Source: Desulfovibrio sp.
Lineage (GTDB): Bacteria > Desulfobacterota > Desulfovibrionia > Desulfovibrionales > Desulfovibrionaceae
Length of the DNA stretch: 23,899 bases
NCBI GenBank assembly: GCA_031282465.1
Contig: JAITDR010000223.1
Location: 1-23,899, forward strand
Direction: 5' to 3'
Below, piece by piece: positions 2,088 to 14,725 of this stretch. Position 1 is the first letter of the stretch; each line of letters starts with the position of its first letter. A program made the position numbers and the translations under genes. The notes beneath the pieces were generated by a model that saw only the letters and a program-made list of their open reading frames with translations, was not told the DNA's origin and searched no databases.

Positions 2088-2957
2088 ATGCCCGATCATC
2101 CCCGGCGTATGCCGTACACAACATTTTTCGCGTTTTGCCGCATGGTCAGAATCGAACATTCCGTGTTCGCCCTGCCTTTTGCGTATGTCGGGGCTCTGTT
2201 GACCGCGCGCGGCCTGCCCGGACCGGAAGTGCTGCTGCCCCTGACCGCGGCTATGGTCTGCATCCGTTCCTATGCGATGGCCTTCAACCGCATTGCGGAT
2301 TTGCCCCTGGACCGCATCAATCCGCGCACGGCAGGCAGGCCGCTGGTCACGGGGGAAATAAGCCCTGCCGGCGCGCGCCGGTTCTGCGCGGTCACGGCCG
2401 CAGGCTTCGTCGCCTCCTGCGCGGCCCTCAATTCCCTGTGTCTGGTCCTGGCGTTCCCGACCCTTGCGCTCGCGGCCCTGTACAGTTACGCCAAGCGTGT
2501 CACCCGGCTCTGCCACTTTCTCCTGGGCGCGGTGATCGGCCTTGCTCCCGTTGCCGGGGCGCTGGGTGTTTCGCCGGTCTTCGAGCCTTCTTCGCTGTTG
2601 CTCGGCTTTGCCGTTCTTTTCTGGATCGCGGGCTTCGACATCATTTACGCCTGCATGGACCTGGATTTCGACCGGGCGCACGGGGTGCATTCCCTGCCCG
2701 CATGTTCGGGCGTCGGTCCGGCCCTGGCCGTTTCCGCCTTCTGTCATGTGAACACGGTGCTTTTTCTTTTTCTGGCCGGTCTTGAATACGGGCAAAGCGC
2801 CGGCTGGTACGCAGCGCTGGCCGTCACCGCGGCCCTGTTCCTGTGGGAACACGGCCTTGTGGGGGAGGGCAGGCTGGAGAACGCCGGTTTCGCCTTTGCC
2901 CTGAACGGCCCCATTGCCGTGCTGCTGCTGATCGGGGCGGCTCTGGGGATGGGTTGA
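2088..2957 (+). CDS. mqnP: UbiA-family aromatic prenyltransferase, MqnP-like
   Basis: Integral membrane enzyme that would attach a polyprenyl chain to an aromatic acid in quinone synthesis. The 289-residue protein has about eight hydrophobic segments and both Asp-rich metal/diphosphate motifs. The first is NRIADLPLD (N67, D71, D75), followed by INPRTAGRPLVTGEIS. The second is FDIIYACMDLDFDRAHGVHS (D184, D191, D195). That second motif resembles the MqnP/'UbiA-other' group used with the futalosine menaquinone route better than classic UbiA. This is recognition from memory, so the symbol is tentative. The ATG at 2088 has no clear ribosome binding site and lies 6 bases after the activator stop, suggesting translational coupling. 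An in-frame ATG at 2109 is an alternative. The gene ends 70 bases from the convergent MBOAT gene, with no clear terminator between. Confidence 0.85.
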   Translation: MPDHPRRMPYTTFFAFCRMVRIEHSVFALPFAYVGALLTARGLPGPEVLLPLTAAMVCIRSYAMAFNRIADLPLDRINPRTAGRPLVTGEISPAGARRFCAVTAAGFVASCAALNSLCLVLAFPTLALAALYSYAKRVTRLCHFLLGAVIGLAPVAGALGVSPVFEPSSLLLGFAVLFWIAGFDIIYACMDLDFDRAHGVHSLPACSGVGPALAVSAFCHVNTVLFLFLAGLEYGQSAGWYAALAVTAALFLWEHGLVGEGRLENAGFAFALNGPIAVLLLIGAALGMG

Positions 2958-3027
2958 CGCGACGGCGTAGGCGTTGTTTCATCGCTGCCCGGCCCGTACT
3001 CCTCTCTCTCCGCCGCCGCTCTTGTCC

Positions 3028-5214: not shown

Positions 5215-7011
5215 CTATCCGCCGGCCTTGCCTGCGCGCGCGACGGACTTGGCGCGCGCCGTGCCCCGACCGTCACCGACGACTCCTTGCGGCGCGCCGC
5301 CGAGAGTTTTCAGGACGGAGGGCATAATATAATCCGTCAGCAACTTCCCGCCCGCCGTAGACACATGGACCTTGTCGGCGGCGCGTATGCGCACCGGCTC
5401 CGCGTTGTTGCCGGGGCGGAAGGTGGTGTATTGTCCGTTCTTGTCCGCCAGCACGGCGCGGACATCAAGGTAGGACGCAAAATCGAATTTCGCGCAGGCG
5501 TCCTGCTGAAGCCGGGAGACGGTCCGCAACACTTTTTCTATTTTGTCCACCCCGGCAATAGGCAAGCCTACCCAAAGCACCTTGGCCCCGCGCGATCCGG
5601 CTATGTGTACGAACTCCTCGGCACGGCGACGGTATTCCTTTTCCCAGGCCGGCGTGAACACGGTGCAGGCGCGCCGGTTCAGGTCCGTCATCGTGGAGCC
5701 GTCGTTGGCGCCTATAGAGATGACAACCAGGTCCGGGGAATGCTCCGCCACCAGACCGTCGAGGTATTTCGGCCAATCGACATCGGTGATGCGGCAGAGG
5801 CCGGTTGACGGCCGGGAATAGCGTTTGACGGAAATCCAGGGATAGGCCCGCATGCTGCGCTCAAGCACATGCCCCAAACCCCAGCCCATCATGGAATCGC
5901 CGACCAGCAGCACCGTTTTGCGCTCCTTGCCCGCTCCCTCAAGCCCGGAATTTTCCGGCAGAGAGGCAAGTGTCGCGCCTGGAAGAGCGGAACCGGCGGG
6001 AACGACCGCGCCCGCCCGGACGCTCTCTTGCGGAGCATCGGCCGGGAACGGCGGGGCGACCGCCGCCTGCGGTGCCGTTGAGACCCGCAGCGCTGCTGTT
6101 TCCGCCTGCGGGGCTGCTTTGGCTACAGTCTGCTGCGCTGTTGCAGCCGGCGGATCTGTTACAGTTACAGCCTGCATGGATGTTGCAGTCTGCGGCGTTG
6201 TTGCAGTTACAGCCTGCGGAGATGTTGCGCGTTGCGCTCCGTGAACGGCAGGGAGTTCCGCAGGAAGCTTTGACGCATCGGGTGCGTTTTGTTGTCCGGA
6301 AGCCGCCCGTGTTGCGGGAAGTACCGACACTTCCGGTACTGCCTGCGTTCCGGCGCGCACACCCGCTGTTTCCGACGGCCCCGACGCGGGTTCCCGGACA
6401 GGCGCGGGGGCTGTTTCGACGCCGCGGGAGTTCCTTTCCGGATCGTCTGCTCCGGCGGAGAGCGTCGTCTTTTGCCGGACGGCGGGCGTGTTCCCGGCCA
6501 GACGGCGGATCAGGGAGTCTTCCCATGCACCCAGGCCGGCCGCGCCGCTCGCCTTGCCGATTGCGCGGAGCAGGGATGCCGCCTTTTCCGCAGCGGCACC
6601 GGGGGCAAACTCGTCAAGATAACGTGCCCCGCGCTCGGACTCAAGGACAAGCAGCAGCAGGCAGACGCAGGCGGCCAGTATAAAAGCCCTGCCTGAAGGA
6701 AGAAAGACTCCGGCTGAAGCAGGGAAAGTCCCGCATGAAGCCGTTTCTTTCGGCGTCGCCTCGTCTTGTGCGCCGAGGCCGATGCGGCTCCCGTTCCCGC
6801 CGGCTGAAGCCGTTTTTTGCGTCGGCGCGTCGCCGGGGACCGGCCCTTCAGCGCAGACGGCCGCTTCCCGGGCGTCCGCAACTGTCGCGTCGGCGCGCGG
6901 CAGACCGTTGTCGACGGGCAGGGGAAACTGCACGCCGGCTTTTTTGCCGCGTTTCTTCCGCTGTTTCGCGCGCGCTCCCGAAGAAGCATGTTTTTTTCTG
7001 CCGGACGACAT
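5215..7011 (-). CDS. DUF459-like SGNH protein with membrane anchor and Ala/Pro/Thr repeat linker
   Basis: A 598-residue protein. Numbered from the chosen ATG: a Lys/Arg-rich cytoplasmic N-terminus (~1-25), one membrane segment (~108-124), a long low-complexity Ala/Pro/Thr/Gln linker (~190-360), and a C-terminal SGNH domain. The domain carries LLVGDSMMGWG (Ser373), ISIGAND (431-437) and DKVHVSTAGG (Asp546, His549). This resembles the DUF459 family found beside MBOAT acyltransferases. The linker holds about four units of a 14-residue imperfect repeat (~264-315). I start at ATG 7011 because upstream residues look non-coding. No good ribosome binding site is seen, so a leaderless or weak start is possible. 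It heads the SGNH-SGNH-MBOAT set. The linker could span the periplasm so the catalytic domain reaches its polymer (inference). Confidence 0.8.
   Translation of the reverse strand: MSSGRKKHASSGARAKQRKKRGKKAGVQFPLPVDNGLPRADATVADAREAAVCAEGPVPGDAPTQKTASAGGNGSRIGLGAQDEATPKETASCGTFPASAGVFLPSGRAFILAACVCLLLLVLESERGARYLDEFAPGAAAEKAASLLRAIGKASGAAGLGAWEDSLIRRLAGNTPAVRQKTTLSAGADDPERNSRGVETAPAPVREPASGPSETAGVRAGTQAVPEVSVLPATRAASGQQNAPDASKLPAELPAVHGAQRATSPQAVTATTPQTATSMQAVTVTDPPAATAQQTVAKAAPQAETAALRVSTAPQAAVAPPFPADAPQESVRAGAVVPAGSALPGATLASLPENSGLEGAGKERKTVLLVGDSMMGWGLGHVLERSMRAYPWISVKRYSRPSTGLCRITDVDWPKYLDGLVAEHSPDLVVISIGANDGSTMTDLNRRACTVFTPAWEKEYRRRAEEFVHIAGSRGAKVLWVGLPIAGVDKIEKVLRTVSRLQQDACAKFDFASYLDVRAVLADKNGQYTTFRPGNNAEPVRIRAADKVHVSTAGGKLLTDYIMPSVLKTLGGAPQGVVGDGRGTARAKSVARAGKAGG
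6061..6222 (-). repeat. in-frame 42-bp (14-residue) imperfect repeat in the SGNH linker
   Basis: The translated linker shows consecutive units SPQAVTATTPQTAT, SMQAVTVTDPPAAT, AQQTVAKAAPQAET and AALRVSTAPQAAV. All are near 14 residues with Gln-Ala/Thr-Val in the same place. At the DNA level, similar GTTACAGCCTGC and ATGTTGCAG words recur. Such tracts usually expand or contract by replication slippage. Confidence 0.6.
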
Positions 7012-7229
7012 GGCCGCACTGTAGCATACAATGCGGCGATCTTCAAGAAAGACCGGCCGCGCAACACCGGAATACCTCGCAACCTGTGAACAGCCGAACC
7101 CGGAAGGTCGCTTTCGGCACACTACTCCACGGCCCGCGCTGCCCGTGCCGTGTATAGCGTAACACCATCCATACTCCGATACTGCATACCCTGCCGTAGC
7201 TTCACATGCGGCACCGGATTGGTTGTAGT

Positions 7230-7890: not shown

Positions 7891-10800
7891 TCATGCCGCG
7901 GCGTTCCTTCCGAACCGGGACAGCAGGATTTCCAGGAGTTTGTCCGCCTCCAGCGGTTTGGCCAGATGTCCGTTCATGCCCGAGGCAACCGCCCGGTCCA
8001 CGTCTTCCTTGAAGGCGTTGGCGGTCAGGGCGATGATCGGCACGGTGCGCGCGTCGTCCCGCGGCAGGGCGCGTATGGCCGCGGCGGCATCGTAGCCGTT
8101 CATGTGCGGCATCTGGATGTCCATAAAAATCACGTCGTACCGGCCGGGCGGCGACTGCCTGAATTTTTCCAGGGCGACGGCCCCGTCTTCGGCTTCTTCG
8201 ATAATCATGCCCGTATCGGACAACATGTCGATGACGATGACGCGGTTGACTTCCACATCATCCACCAGGAGCGCGCGTCGGCCGGCAAGAGACGTAATGT
8301 CGGAAACGACGGCTTCCGCCGCGTCGGTGCGGGTCGTGTCTTCTTTGAAAGATATCTCGAAGGAAAACACGCTGCCCCTGCCTTCCTCGCTCTCGACGGC
8401 GATGTCGCCGCCGAGCATGTTCACAATGCTTTTGCTGATGGAAAGACCGAGTCCCGTGCCGCCGAACTGCCGCGTGATATGGCCGCCGAGCTGCTCGAAG
8501 GGTTTGAAAAGCCTTTCCGTTTGCTCCGGGGCAATGCCGATGCCCGTATCGCGCACGGAGAAGTGTACGGTCGTCGTCCCGTCCGCACGACCCGTCTGTT
8601 TCACGGCAAACCAAATTTCCCCGCATTCGGGCGTGAACTTGACCGCATTGCCGAGCAGGTTGACCAGCACCTGGCGCAGACGCAGATGGTCGGCAATAAA
8701 GTACGCCGTTTCCAGACCTTGCTCATCGACGTGAAAGACGATGCCCTTCTCCCGGCAGCGCGGACTGATGATGCCCGTCACGCCCGAAATGAGCCTGGGC
8801 AGGTTGAAGGATTCCTCCGTCAGCTCAATCTTGCCGGCCTCAATTTTGGAAATGTCCAGAATATCGTTGAGCAGGCCCAGAAGATGCGCGGACGAGCTTT
8901 CAATCCGGTCCACATAACGCAGTATTTCCTCGTTGTCCGCCTCTTTGTCCTTCAGTTTGCGCTTGGTTATGTTGGTCAGACCGATGACGGCGTTCATGGG
9001 GGTTCTGATTTCATGGCTCATGCGGGCCAGGAAGGCACTTTTGGATTCGCTGGCGCGATTCGCGGCGGCGGCGGCCTTGCGAAGTTCGCGTCGGGTACGG
9101 CGCAGGCGGTTTTCCACGTTGACGCGTTGTGTCACGTCGCGGCCGACGCCGAGTAACCCCACCATTTTACCGATAGGATCGAAAAGCGGCGTTCTGACCA
9201 CGTCCAAGATTTCTTCGTGCCCGTCGGCAAATACGCAATGCTCTTCCGTGTACACCGGCCCGGCGCTTTCAAACGCCAACCTGTCGTTTTCGGCGATGGT
9301 CGAGGCCACCGACGCGGGCAGGCATTCCTGCGGCGTCCGGCCCCGGACGGCCCGCGCATCCGTGCCGAAAGCGGCGGCAAACCTGGGGTTCACGCCCAGA
9401 TAACGCCCCGCGATATCCTGATACCACATCAGGTCGGGCGACGCTTCAAAAACGGAAGAAAGCAAGGCGCGCTGCCGCTCGATGCGCTTCTGTTCCTCTA
9501 TCAGATCGGTCACATCGGCGACCGTGATGATCATCCCCGTACGCCGGCCTTCGTTGTCCGTCAGCCAGGTGGCGCTGCCGCGGCGGTAACGGCCCGAAGG
9601 CGGGTGGAAAAGCACCTCCGCTTCCGTGCCGTTCTCAAGGGCGGCGATGGGGCAGTACGGCGAATCTTTGGGGAAAATGCTGAACTGTTCGTAGGGCTTG
9701 CCGACGACGTGCGCCGGCTCCGACTCGTTGAAAAGGGCCAATGCCCCGGCATTGGCGTATTTTATGTTCCGGTCGAGGTCGACGATGCACATGGGGCCGT
9801 GCACGCTCTCCGCGACGGCGTCGGCCATATCGTCGAAGGAGTCGGCCAGCGCGCCCATTTCGTCCTTGATGACGGCGTTGAAGCGGAACTGCCGTTCGCC
9901 GGAGCGGAAACGCGAAATGCCCCGGATCATGCGCGTGATGCTCCCCGTAAAAGCGGATGCCAGCCGGACGGCAATCAGGACGACCGCCAGAATCATCAAC
10001 CCCGTGGACACGGTCAGACGCCGGGCCGTGTCGAGCAGATTCTCGCCTATGGCCCGGAATGTCGCCGTTGCCATGTCCTGCAGTTGCGCGTCGGTATCGG
10101 TGATGCGCTTGTGGATGACCTCCCGGGTCACCGCGGCCGGACGGTGAAAGTCTGCGAGTCCCGCTCCTACGGCGACAAAGCCGAACCCGCGCGGAGACTT
10201 CCCGTAATTGCCGGTGTAATAGGGAATGGCGGCGGCCGTGTTCAGTTTCCACAAGCCGCTCCAGAGAATGAGAAAGGAGCCGGAGCCGCCCCGGCTTGTG
10301 AGGTCGAACCAGCCCGTGCATTGGGGCGCGAAATTCAGATAGCGGCAGTCAAGACCGACGAGACCCCGTTCGGTAAGCTGCCGGGCCGGTTTTTTGCTGT
10401 TGGACTGAGCGTCGAAGGTCGGCACGTTTTTGACGAACTCGGCATAAGGCAGTCCCGATGCCTGCCATTCGTCGTAAATGCGGTCTTCCAGCCAGGGGAC
10501 CTGGGGGTCGCCCGTCGCCGGGTCAAAACCGGTTATGGAATGATGTCTGGGGTGAACGATGCTGCGTCCCTTGTAATCCCAAATGAAGGCGTAATTGCCT
10601 TCATAGGCGTCGGAAAGCTCCGTGTAACGCTCGGCCGTAGGCATGATGTGGTCCGTAAACTCCATGATATGGTCGTGGTCCAGAGCCATGGTTACATAGC
10701 CCGCGACCCTGCCCTTTTCGACTACGGGCACGCCCCAGCGTACAAGCCCCTTGAAACGCCTGCCCAGCGGATTTTCCCGCCCGGCGAAGGCCTGCTGTTC

Positions 10801-11640
10801 CGGTTCGTACGGCACGCCGCGCTTGGCGCAATTTTCGGGGGTATACATGCCGATAAGGTTGGTGCCGACGTATTCGCCGATGACGTCGGACACATAGATT
10901 TCGGCCGGCCCGAGTTTTTTCAGTTCATCGAAATAGGTTTCGGCGCCCGCATAGGTGTTGCGCCGGTCGGAGACGTCTTTCAGTTCTTTGGACATGCGTT
11001 CGGAAGTCGTCACCTTGATGCGTTCCCTGCCGTTCGGGTCGACAAAGGTGATTTCCAGATACAAAGGACGCGTCTCGTACTGGAAACGCTCGGGCGGGCG
11101 GTAGTGGAAACTGTGGTCGTTTTCCTCAATGCCGGAAATAACCTGCTCCGGCGCCGGGCCGGGATCCTCCCGCCGCCATGATTTGCCGTCGGGCGCGAGT
11201 TCCCGGCGGCCCGTGCGCACCAGCCGGCCTGTTTTGCCGAAAGCGAAACGGCGGTATACGGCCTCGTCGGGCTCCATGGAGGCGAGAAAACGCAGATCGT
11301 CGTCGCGCGCGTACAGAAACTTTGCCACCGCGAGCGCCGTATCCGTGCTCATGCGCTCAATTTCGTCCGTGGCGCGGCGGTCCAGCGCAACCATGGCGTC
11401 GCCGACGGCGATGTCGCCGCTCTCCGTCAGCGCTTTGACCGCCGTTGAGGAGATGTCGACGGTCCGCTTCTTGAGTTCCTCACCCAGCAGCCAGGCTTGG
11501 CGCCACGCCACCAGAGCGATGAAAATCAAGGGGATGACCTTGATGACTACAAAGAGCGATATGAGTTTGGCGCGCATACCCAAGCCGAGCGAGGCGAATA
11601 TGCGCTCAATCTTCATACGCAATGGTGATTCCCGAAACAT
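7891..11640 (-). CDS. hybrid sensor histidine kinase with Cache-like sensor, PAS domains and receiver
   Basis: A 1249-residue inner-membrane signalling protein. In order it has a first membrane segment (~24-47), a ~490-residue extracytoplasmic region of double-Cache style (~50-540), a second membrane segment (~541-564), a HAMP-like stretch (~565-610), two PAS domains (~608-715 and ~722-840) and a HisKA domain MSHEIRTP with His876. An ATPase domain follows with DTGIGIAP (1031-1038) and GGTGLGLSI (1060-1068), and the protein ends in a receiver with LLVDD (1124-1128), phospho-acceptor Asp1174 in FMDIQMP, Thr1206 and Lys1228. All key residues are present. No Hpt domain or partner response regulator lies in this window. 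The start may be ATG 11640 or 11616; neither has a convincing binding site. The ligand and output are unknown. It may act through a distant Hpt or regulator. Confidence 0.93.
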   Translation of the reverse strand: MFRESPLRMKIERIFASLGLGMRAKLISLFVVIKVIPLIFIALVAWRQAWLLGEELKKRTVDISSTAVKALTESGDIAVGDAMVALDRRATDEIERMSTDTALAVAKFLYARDDDLRFLASMEPDEAVYRRFAFGKTGRLVRTGRRELAPDGKSWRREDPGPAPEQVISGIEENDHSFHYRPPERFQYETRPLYLEITFVDPNGRERIKVTTSERMSKELKDVSDRRNTYAGAETYFDELKKLGPAEIYVSDVIGEYVGTNLIGMYTPENCAKRGVPYEPEQQAFAGRENPLGRRFKGLVRWGVPVVEKGRVAGYVTMALDHDHIMEFTDHIMPTAERYTELSDAYEGNYAFIWDYKGRSIVHPRHHSITGFDPATGDPQVPWLEDRIYDEWQASGLPYAEFVKNVPTFDAQSNSKKPARQLTERGLVGLDCRYLNFAPQCTGWFDLTSRGGSGSFLILWSGLWKLNTAAAIPYYTGNYGKSPRGFGFVAVGAGLADFHRPAAVTREVIHKRITDTDAQLQDMATATFRAIGENLLDTARRLTVSTGLMILAVVLIAVRLASAFTGSITRMIRGISRFRSGERQFRFNAVIKDEMGALADSFDDMADAVAESVHGPMCIVDLDRNIKYANAGALALFNESEPAHVVGKPYEQFSIFPKDSPYCPIAALENGTEAEVLFHPPSGRYRRGSATWLTDNEGRRTGMIITVADVTDLIEEQKRIERQRALLSSVFEASPDLMWYQDIAGRYLGVNPRFAAAFGTDARAVRGRTPQECLPASVASTIAENDRLAFESAGPVYTEEHCVFADGHEEILDVVRTPLFDPIGKMVGLLGVGRDVTQRVNVENRLRRTRRELRKAAAAANRASESKSAFLARMSHEIRTPMNAVIGLTNITKRKLKDKEADNEEILRYVDRIESSSAHLLGLLNDILDISKIEAGKIELTEESFNLPRLISGVTGIISPRCREKGIVFHVDEQGLETAYFIADHLRLRQVLVNLLGNAVKFTPECGEIWFAVKQTGRADGTTTVHFSVRDTGIGIAPEQTERLFKPFEQLGGHITRQFGGTGLGLSISKSIVNMLGGDIAVESEEGRGSVFSFEISFKEDTTRTDAAEAVVSDITSLAGRRALLVDDVEVNRVIVIDMLSDTGMIIEEAEDGAVALEKFRQSPPGRYDVIFMDIQMPHMNGYDAAAAIRALPRDDARTVPIIALTANAFKEDVDRAVASGMNGHLAKPLEADKLLEILLSRFGRNAAA

Positions 11641-11852: not shown

Positions 11853-11907
11853 TTTACCGCAAAAAAAGGCCCCCCGCCCTTCCGAGAGGCCGTGGAAGGA
11901 CGGGGGA
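11853..11907 (-). terminator. intrinsic terminator copy A, ending the DUF3990 cassette
   Basis: In minus-strand RNA a 13-bp stem (left arm CCCCCGUCCUUCC, right arm GGAAGGGCGGGGG, one G-U pair) closes a 10-base loop and is followed by GCC and seven U's. On the plus strand the G-U pair becomes an A-C mismatch and the T-tract is absent, so it works leftward. It starts about 16 bases after the stop of the last cassette gene (11924). The whole element repeats at 13142-13195 with only one A fewer in the A-tract. Confidence 0.88.
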
Positions 11908-11923
11908 CGCTTACGATAAAAAA

Positions 11924-12136
11924 CTATTTCCCCAATGGTACAAGCGCGAGGTAGTCTTCAACTTCCCGCAAAACGCCCTGTTCCCCGGTGAGGTGAAACG
12001 GCTCGTAGCCGTCGCGCAGAAAACCCAGCACGTCGTACTCATCGTCGAGCTTGACGAATTCCTGCGGGGTGATTCCGTGCTTGCGTATATAAAGGTTCGA
12101 TATTTGTACTTGAAGATAGGTTTCAGGGTCGAGCAT
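11924..12136 (-). CDS. small acidic protein, DUF3791-like, cassette gene 3
   Basis: A 70-residue protein starting MLDPETYLQV. The ATG at 12136 has an excellent GGAGG six bases upstream, and the previous gene's stop ends one base before it, so the longer open frame is rejected. The pattern HGITPQEFVKLDDEYDVLGF followed by YEPFHLTGEQG and an acidic EVEDYL resembles small DUF3791-type proteins found beside DUF3990 genes (recalled, not searched). It has no catalytic motif, membrane segment or obvious DNA-binding motif. Within the cassette it could be an immunity or antitoxin partner of the DUF3990 protein, which is inference from gene size, charge and tight linkage. A terminator follows immediately. 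Confidence 0.75.
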   Translation of the reverse strand: MLDPETYLQVQISNLYIRKHGITPQEFVKLDDEYDVLGFLRDGYEPFHLTGEQGVLREVEDYLALVPLGK

Positions 12137-12137
12137 G

Positions 12138-12392
12138 TCACACCTCCGTCCATCGGTCCCAGTCGCCGCGCCGCTCTGCGTCATACATATCCAAAACGTA
12201 CTCGGCGCTCTCCAAGTACAGATACGATTCAGGGTCCAAGAGCAACCCGTAGGTCTGCGTCGACATCAGCGTTTTTATCGCTTCCGTCGGCGTGAGACCG
12301 TTGCGCCTTGCTATCATCTGCGCTACCCGCGTAGCGAGTATGTCTTGGCATAGCTCCACGCTCTTCTTCTCGTCCGTCATTGCAGCATCCAC
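12138..12392 (-). CDS. small acidic protein of unknown function, cassette gene 2
   Basis: An 84-residue protein from ATG 12392, which has AAGGAG six bases upstream and overlaps the end of the DUF3990 gene by 16 bases. Starting at the in-frame ATG 12380 would give an ATGA overlap and 80 residues; both are plausible. The core reads LCQDILATRVAQMIARRNGL then TPTEAIKTLMSTQTYGLLLD, a mostly helical, acidic protein ending in a Trp/Asp-rich tail. It shares LDPE[ST]YL with cassette gene 3, so the two may be distantly related or bind the same partner. I cannot name a function. Position and size suggest an antitoxin-like partner. Confidence 0.7.
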   Translation of the reverse strand: MDAAMTDEKKSVELCQDILATRVAQMIARRNGLTPTEAIKTLMSTQTYGLLLDPESYLYLESAEYVLDMYDAERRGDWDRWTEV

Positions 12393-12925
12393 CTCTCCTT
12401 TGGAACAAGCAAATCTGCGGCGCGCTGCGAGCCGAAATAAAACTGCCGGGGCAGGCGTTCAGGGTGTATACGGCTCAGGAAAAAATCTATTGCCTCTTCG
12501 CTGCCCACGTCGCCGTATTCGCCCGCCATATAGAGTTGCGCCGTCCGCGACGTCACATCGTCCGCCGTCGCGCCGATGACGATATCGTAGCTGTGCTGAG
12601 GTGTTTCATTCGTGCGATTGAGTACAACAAACCGCACCCATTCTTTGTCTGCGGTAGCAAAGCGTTTTACGTTGAACGATTCAAGTCTGCCTTCATCCAG
12701 TTCAAACGTATAGAGCCACGGCGTGACATCGCGGGTTATCCCGCGCCGCTTCAATCTGCGGAGCTCTATATCGCGGTTGCGGAGCGCCATATTGAACGCG
12801 CTCTCACGATTTTGCGTGGTGTAGAACCCTTGACCGAAATCTTTGAACGGTTTGCCGCGCGTCACATCTATCTTGGTGAAGTCATGGTTGGTGCCGTGGT
12901 AGAGGGTTATCGTGTTTTCGCCCAT
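12377..12925 (-). CDS. DUF3990 protein, ADP-ribosyltransferase-like, cassette gene 1
   Basis: A 182-residue protein. The N-terminal LYHGT (His10) and FGQGFYTT (Gly31-Tyr35) look like the first two NAD-pocket motifs of H-Y-[E/D/Q] ADP-ribosyltransferases. A late RQFYFGSQRAADLL (~160-173) is where the third motif is expected, with Gln161 the candidate third residue. DUF3990 assignment and ART fold are from memory of the family. Activity is unproven and the third residue is uncertain. ATG 12925 is chosen because GAGAGG lies about ten bases upstream; an in-frame TTG at 12949 would add eight residues. Two small genes follow with overlapping ends, giving a toxin-plus-partners layout. Terminator copy B at 13142-13195 separates it from the ftsZ operon, so it needs its own promoter, for which I see no convincing match. 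Confidence 0.8.
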   Translation of the reverse strand: MGENTITLYHGTNHDFTKIDVTRGKPFKDFGQGFYTTQNRESAFNMALRNRDIELRRLKRRGITRDVTPWLYTFELDEGRLESFNVKRFATADKEWVRFVVLNRTNETPQHSYDIVIGATADDVTSRTAQLYMAGEYGDVGSEEAIDFFLSRIHPERLPRQFYFGSQRAADLLVPKERWMLQ

Positions 12926-13011
12926 CCTAATCAATCCTCTCTGCAGCAATCAACGCTTGAAACAGTTCGCTCAACGGCGGGCAAAGCCCGGCTGGTCCTG
13001 CTTCGCGGCAA

Positions 13012-13030
13012 GGATTTGTGGAGCAAATCC
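13012..13030. repeat. perfect 7-bp hairpin upstream of the DUF3990 cassette
   Basis: GGATTTG-TGGAG-CAAATCC forms a perfect stem with a 5-base loop, about 90 bases upstream of the DUF3990 start. A second, shorter perfect hairpin CGGGC-AAA-GCCCG lies at 12978-12990. Both would be in the leader RNA if transcription starts further upstream. A role is not evident. Confidence 0.45.
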
Positions 13031-13049
13031 CCGAAACATTTTTGAAGGG

Positions 13050-13140
13050 TCCGGGATGAAGCCTCGACTACGCCGAAGGCATGCACAATCAAGAATAATA
13101 CAGGTTGTTAGCATGCGGGAGATGCGTATGTCATCCCGGA
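13050..13140. repeat. nested inverted repeat upstream of the DUF3990 cassette
   Basis: Outer arms TCCGGGATGA (13050-13059) and TCATCCCGGA (13131-13140) are perfect 10-bp inverted copies. Inside them, GCATGCACAA (13079-13088) pairs with TTGT-TA-GCATGC (13105-13116) apart from a two-base bulge. The right outer arm ends one base before terminator copy B. It could be an operator for the cassette, a small mobile-element remnant or a structured leader. Confidence 0.55.
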
Positions 13141-13141
13141 A

Positions 13142-13195
13142 TTTACCGCAAAAAAGGCCCCCCGCCCTTCCGAGAGGCCGTGGAAGGACGGGGGA
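13142..13195 (-). terminator. intrinsic terminator copy B, ending the dcw operon after ftsZ
   Basis: Same hairpin as copy A: a 13-bp stem with one G-U pair, an identical loop, then GCC and six U's on the minus strand. It lies 143 bases past the ftsZ stop and no gene is seen in between. Apart from one A in the A-tract, its 54 bases match 11853-11907, including the loop, which need not be conserved for function. The two copies are therefore recent duplicates or members of a genome repeat. Confidence 0.88.
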
Positions 13196-13338: not shown

Positions 13339-14661
13339 TCAGTTGGCTTGGGTATAGAGAAACGTGGGCGTTTCAAACTCGTCGTCCTCGCTGAAGATGA
13401 AGCTGTCCTCGCCGGGGCTGTGCAGGCCGCGCCGCTGCGGTCCGGCCGCCGCCTGCGGCGCGCGCACGGTGCGACCCCTGACCGCGTAAGCCGGGATATG
13501 CTCGCGTTCCCCAAGGGAAGTATCGCCGCCTTGCTCGTACTGTCTGAGAATCCTTTTCTGGAGTTCCGTGTCCACGGTGTCCAGACCTTCGGGCAGGCGG
13601 GTGATACGGCCCGACGCCTGCAGCGGCGCCGGCCCGACCGAGTTGCGGACCGGGGCCGAGATCGGGGACCGGGTGCCTGCGACCTCGCAGCCGCCCGCCC
13701 TGTCTATGCCCGTGGCAATGACCGTAATGCGTATTTCGTCGCCCATGGTCTCGTCTATGCAGGTGCCGAACTTGACGTTTACGTCCGCATGGGCGGACTC
13801 CTGCACGATGCCCGCCGCCTCGGCCACTTCATCCAGGCCGAGATTCTCATCGGCGGTGATGTTCAGAAGCACGTTGCGCGCCCCGCTTATGGACACGTCT
13901 TCGAGCAGCGGGCTGGCAATGGCCATGCGCGCCGCTTTTCCCGCCCTGTCTTCTCCCGAGGCCGTGCCCGCGCCCATCATGGCCAGACCGGAATCGCTCA
14001 TGACCGTTTTCACGTCGGCGAAATCCACGTTGATGAAGCCGGGGGTCATGATCAGGTCGGAGATACCCTGGACGGCGTTCAACAGCACCTCGTCGGCCTT
14101 TTTAAGCATTTCCACAAAGGTGGCTTTTTTGTGCGCTATGAGCATCAGGCGGTCGTTGGGTATGGTGATGAGGCTGTCCACGTATTTGCGGAATTCCTCA
14201 ATGCCGCTTTCCGCCGCCCGAAGGCGCGGAGGACCTTCAAACGAGAAGGGCTTGGTGACCACGCCCACGGTCAGGATGCCGAGTTCCTTGGCAATCTGCG
14301 CGATGACGGGGGCCGCGCCGGTGCCGGTGCCGCCGCCCATGCCCGCGGTGACGAAAATCATTTCCGCGCCCTCAATGCACTGCCGGATCTGCTCCGCGCT
14401 TTCACGGGCCGCCTCGCAGCCTATCTTGGGATTGGAACCCGCGCCGCGCCCCTTGGTGAGTTTGGCGCCGATCTGAATTTTCCGCCCGGCCAGGGATTTG
14501 TCCAAAGCCTGCAGGTCCGTGTTGGCGGCGATGAAACTGACGCCGCGCAACCCTGATTCCACCATGGTGTTGACGGCGTTGCCGCCGCCTCCGCCGACGC
14601 CGACGACCTTGATCACGGTCTGCTGTTCGTTGCCGTTGCCGTTGTTGATGATAAGTTCCAT
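13339..14661 (-). CDS. ftsZ: cell division protein FtsZ
   Basis: Tubulin-like GTPase of 440 residues that polymerises into the division ring at midcell. It shows the early glycine loop [11 protein letters not shown] (21-31), the tubulin signature GGGTGTGAA (109-117), and the synergy-loop NVDFADVK (211-218, Asp214) that completes the GTPase site of the next subunit. A variable linker follows from ~320, and the protein ends [12 protein letters not shown]. The final peptide keeps the Pro-Thr-Phe-Leu core used to bind FtsA but has Tyr where Arg is usual. The start ATG 14661 has AAGGAG seven bases upstream, and the longer open frame is rejected. It follows ftsA by 64 bases, is the last gene of the cluster, and is followed by terminator copy B. 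Confidence 0.98.
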
Positions 14662-14725
14662 TGTGCCTCTCCTTGCCTTTCCTTGCCGTTGCACCGGCTT
14701 GCGCTGCCGGTTCTGCCGGATATGC

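Follow-up and report, generated by a model that had tools for sequence, protein, structure and literature searches.

PDC-M13 is a candidate system in PADLOC-DB 2.0.0 whose models carry no described mechanism and whose role in phage defence is a prediction. In published reports, rumen genomes have yielded 3,324 PDC-M13 calls (PMC13356809), DUF3990 has been assigned to the ADP-ribosyltransferase (ART) clan (PMC7955679), the Serratia marcescens Rhs5-CT carries DUF3990 as the C-terminus of an Rhs protein beside a predicted immunity gene (PMC4524185), and CmdTAC consists of three genes, with an ART toxin whose triad is of the HY-[E,D,Q] class (PMC11618068). The literature we searched, which left most subscription papers and preprints outside, held neither a mechanism nor a phage-protection experiment for PDC-M13, and no paper in it names the further candidates PDC-M10 and PDC-M42 or the Pfam families PF13151 and PF12668. 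Here we describe a cassette of three small genes, ART, B and C, in a stretch of 23,899 nucleotides from Desulfovibrio sp. (contig JAITDR010000223.1, hereafter the window; the source genome is 1.96 Mb and 67% complete). Our results suggest that the cassette is probably a mobile toxin-antitoxin unit, made up of an ART toxin and an antitoxin split over the paralogous proteins B and C. An initial annotation of the locus had suggested that the system may be little-described, which holds for its mechanism in the literature searched and not for the system as such, already catalogued as PDC-M13.

The cassette lies on the minus strand as three adjoining open reading frames (ORFs). ART (12377..12925), the predicted toxin gene, opens with an ATG at 12925 and has 182 codons. 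B (12138..12380, 80 aa) starts with an ATG at 12380 that overlaps the stop codon of ART as ATGA; C (11924..12136, 70 aa) starts at 12136, one base past the B stop. Both small proteins are acidic, with a net charge of −6 for B and −7 for C (D+E versus K+R, counted by hand). That the small genes overlap or abut, and that their products are acidic, is as first annotated, and small partner genes so placed next to a toxin gene are the layout of a type II toxin-antitoxin locus.

The three motifs from which an ART had been proposed, LYHGT (residues 8-12), FGQGFYTT (30-37) and RQFYFG (160-165), are present in the 182-residue protein, and the identity was borne out by profile searches, with matches to Pfam DUF3990 (PF13151) at 1.6e-36 and 125.7 bits (cut-off 32.2) and to the PADLOC models PDC-M13A and PDC-M13B at 1.9e-29 and 7.5e-29. 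A Pfam scan of the window ART up to E 10 gave DUF3990 and a weak ART-PolyVal match only, and no RES family. In the alignment of relatives H10 and Y35 occur in 75/75 rows each and Q161 in 74/74 rows with a letter; this invariant triad is presumably catalytic. An ART fold was found in the model of a relative, with ParST, MbcTA and RES-Xre pairs among the nearest solved folds. The window's genome holds a second ART, 39% identical, together with a B gene and running into a contig end. In another genome of the genus (G001), a contig edge carries a frame of 90 codons (L012, 3-272) in which the beginning of such an ART runs into the end of a B, a deletion remnant. It stands near a gene very like the neighbour of the second ART (L009) in the window's genome.

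C was assigned to Pfam DUF3791 (PF12668; 8.1e-07, 29.4 bits, cut-off 25) and matched PDC-M13A and PDC-M13C (1e-06). B gave no Pfam match of its own up to E 10 and was recognized by PDC-M13B (2.5e-10) and PDC-M13C (1.8e-08); the genes in the B place of G226, G281, G114 and G142 pass the DUF3791 cut-off themselves (26-28 bits). When wide profiles of the two proteins (107 B and 105 C rows) were compared, 53 columns aligned collinearly with a probability of 94.1% (E 1.2e-7), the reversed-profile controls reaching at most 0.4%; narrower profiles gave weaker values of 3% and 67%. The predicted structure of C has five helices (4-20, 24-34, 36-42, 44-47 and 51-65; pLDDT 91.3), and its helix pattern agrees with that of B as modelled within a fusion protein (190-213, 217-225, 228-234 and 245-256). 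On these comparisons B and C are paralogous DUF3791-like modules, B being the divergent one, and each is predicted to be one half of an antitoxin. The two possible neutralisers of the initial annotation thus become two kindred modules, found as one fused protein in some relatives, with a neutralising role that is still a prediction. The LDPE[ST]YL motif does occur in both proteins as had been pointed out, at residues 48-54 of B and 2-8 of C, and fails as evidence because these places are not equivalent in the profile alignment. The Pfam scan found no helix-turn-helix (HTH) family in the window's B or C; HTH domains are present on partners in related loci. One small protein of 52 aa (P0183) consists of the beginning of B followed by the end of C and is apparently the product of an internal deletion.

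A scan of genome contigs recovered 513 ART relatives, and among the best 80 of these, the nearer part of the family, B and C profiles found ART, B and C side by side in 76; the other four (L034, L048, L064 and L090) reach a contig end. The three-gene set is thus far above chance. ART-B-C is the order of L014-L059, the loci closest to that of the window, and C-ART-B the order of the more distant L060-L093, mostly from Lachnospiraceae. A tree of 154 ARTs implies at least 3 changes of order for the rows with B and C, and 6 changes when all layouts are counted; well-supported branches force 2 to 3 layout changes, in a tree with long branches and unsettled bootstrap from which the window's row and the fusions L029 and L073 were left out.

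Partnership was also assessed in 291 Clostridia genomes, where DUF3990 was found in 59 and DUF3791 in 46 (both 36, DUF3990 only 23, DUF3791 only 10, neither 222). Of the 81 DUF3791 matches, 50 have an ART match no more than 1.5 kb away and 31 do not; the neighbourhoods of 11 of these 31 were examined. The DUF3990 scan gave 102 match rows, of which 83 are in the loci examined, 18 fragments or weak rows and one duplicate being omitted. The 80 Clostridia loci contain 84 ART ORFs, two broken genes accounting for four of these. Of the 84, 41 have B+C as partners, 36 the PDC-M42 partner M42B, 4 the PDC-M10 partner M10B, and 3 none; the partnerless ones lie at a contig edge (L149), alone (L173) or next to an unrelated-looking neighbour (L197). 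L125 and L131 possess both B and C, and L150 has C inside a long upstream ORF. Two ART-B units stand in tandem about 1.2 kb apart in L067 (5959-7898), and in L142 a free DUF3791 protein (2801-3016; Pfam 1.4e-21) follows an ART already paired with an HTH-bearing partner.

The modules are also found joined. ART and B form one frame with an internal ATG in L029 and L073, L029 having in addition a ribosome-site-like stretch before B. On a mobilizable Phocaeicola vulgatus plasmid of 7,659 bp (L246) and a Bacteroides uniformis plasmid of 124 kb (L247), a single B-C protein is encoded upstream of ART, with matches for the B half of 5.6e-14 and 1.3e-13 and for the C half of 3.2e-17 and 4.3e-17 (E-values set for 1,000 sequences). 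In L246 two very similar 86-aa proteins (5672-5932 and 6927-7187) flank the pair. The partners of the other two candidates gave a similar picture at varying strength. In PDC-M10 (5 sequences) the C-terminal half of the partner resembles B (91.9%, E 7e-7) and the N-terminal half weakly C (10.9%, E 0.0028). The 35 PDC-M42 partners comprise 13 shorter than 200 aa and 22 of 200 aa or more; in the short ones the N-terminal half compared with B at 56% (E 1e-4) and with C at 48%, and the C-terminal half with C at 69% (E 4e-5). Matches of the long ones were weak (B 5.3%, C 21.8%), and the three that were scanned with Pfam all end in an HTH. Reversed controls stayed at or below 0.4% throughout.

Of the reading first made from the sequence, the ART identity, the toxin-antitoxin-like arrangement and the constancy of the three genes are supported. 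A toxin-antitoxin unit with a split antitoxin would account for the steady gene set and its overlaps, for fusions and orphans, and for mobility. In such a unit ART would act as a NAD-dependent ADP-ribosyltransferase that poisons its own producer cell, and B and C, translated straight after it from the overlapping or abutting genes, would as halves of one antitoxin jointly keep it inactive. Loss of either half, by degradation, titration by a phage product or lack of replacement after loss of the DNA, would free ART, and the outcome could be abortive phage defence, addiction or both. More tentatively, PDC-M13, PDC-M10 and PDC-M42 may be one superfamily of DUF3990 ARTs held by a two-module DUF3791-like antitoxin, in which the lock is conserved and the layout is not; if both halves are needed, the lock would be a double-key sensor. 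The modules would then have been reshuffled many times, into two genes on the same side of the toxin or on opposite sides, into B-C or C-B fusions, and into fusions with the toxin or with an HTH.

The closest named ARTs (75-77% identity) come from two phyla and include one of Candidatus Adiutrix (76%; lineage Thermodesulfobacteriota), a termite-gut genus, and in the tree phyla are intermixed at close range, as expected of horizontal transfer. In the window the cassette has on one side an ORF taken for ftsZ (14694..13339) and on the other an ORF taken for a hybrid histidine kinase (11640..7891), both names being read off the sequences themselves. Perfect 46-nt direct repeats (11862..11907 and 13150..13195, 100% identical, no strand assigned) flank it 1,288 nt apart, and each copy holds a terminator-like hairpin on the minus strand. 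The distal hairpin (11868..11891) follows C and closes the cassette, confirming the terminator of its own that had been ascribed to the unit. The hairpin upstream of the cassette (13156..13179) lies behind ftsZ and has a match behind ftsZ in G001, G002 and G013; it is also present in cassette-free relatives. A 38-nt core of the repeat has only these two sites in the window's genome with up to 3 mismatches allowed. The leader between the ftsZ terminator and ART (12926..13149, minus strand) is presumably the promoter region; a scan of it with the sigma-70 consensus found no site.

The survey of the genus covered 15 genomes including the window's own, 14 of them with FtsZ, and ten ftsZ loci from other genomes were compared. 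In three of these (L203, L208 and L200, the last from G001 with an FtsZ 96% identical) ftsZ is followed by the same kinase and the cassette is absent, in two (L201 and L202) ftsZ and the terminator are followed by other DNA, and the remaining five gave no kinase match within the stretch examined. Since the loci differ in carrying it, presence of the cassette varies within the genus. In L200 a second, diverged hairpin is present, which is perhaps a scar of cassette loss, or perhaps the older state.

Such presence and absence beside ftsZ within one genus is also what a purely selfish addiction unit would give, maintaining plasmids or islands with no role in phage defence. Relatives are indeed present in 67 plasmid records, one plasmid being as small as 7.7 kb, and around the 76 full loci the neighbours are otherwise scattered, the families shown among 150 scanned neighbour genes being mostly ordinary. 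However, on a Moraxella osloensis plasmid (L248, 2454-6001) the genes run hsdM-ART-B-C-hsdS with overlapping gene ends at each joint, and the cassette is therefore inside a type I restriction-modification operon. PADLOC, moreover, lists the cassette as a defence candidate, which is a prediction. We regard addiction alone as unlikely.

A division of labour within the cassette would be a further alternative, with one small protein as the neutraliser and the other as a sensor or stabiliser that preserves its partner for as long as no phage product removes the stabiliser. CmdTAC, with three genes including an ART, follows this logic (PMC11618068). In a viral contig (L094) ART has an HTH-C protein as its neighbour and no B was picked up by the B profile, a soft observation as the C module there also escaped the narrow C profile. 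Against this, B and C are kin and in some relatives one protein, which makes separate roles rather improbable. The fold also differs: C is modelled as five helices and B as helical, and the SecB fold is not all-helical. Among the 11 Pfam families found over 74 C proteins at E 0.1 none is SecB. Finally, a non-toxic protein modifier, in which B and C would be subunits that target or regulate ART, would suit the stable three-gene make-up equally well, yet is very improbable in view of the B-C pairs without any ART (L218, L244 and L245), the broken ARTs with stops among the Clostridia loci and the G001 remnant, all resembling the wear of toxin-antitoxin loci, and of DUF3990 as an Rhs C-terminal domain beside a predicted immunity gene (PMC4524185).

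Compared with known systems, the cassette shares with ParST, MbcTA and RES-Xre pairs a nearby fold and, as predicted, an ART toxin with a protein antitoxin, whereas those pairs combine a RES toxin with an Xre HTH antitoxin, neither of which Pfam found in the ART, B or C of the window. Rhs5-CT holds DUF3990 within a large Rhs protein, in contrast to the small free-standing ART described here. CmdTAC likewise has three genes, built around an ART toxin of the HY-[E,D,Q] triad class, and differs in that its third protein is a SecB-like chaperone, the defining component of that family, while the small proteins of the window are DUF3791-like helical modules. PDC-M10 and PDC-M42 have a related DUF3990 ART and a partner that looks like a fused C-B (PDC-M10) or B-C (PDC-M42), in two genes rather than three and, in PDC-M42, with a longer ART. 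From PDC-M13 we found no difference: all three proteins match its models, an ART-type component stands beside two adjacent small ones, and the way its A, B and C models are distributed over ART, B and C suits either of the observed gene orders, so the cassette is a member. PDC-M13 is reported to be abundant, yet the literature searched gives it no mechanism, and reading its small proteins as a split antitoxin would join three separately listed candidates under one test.
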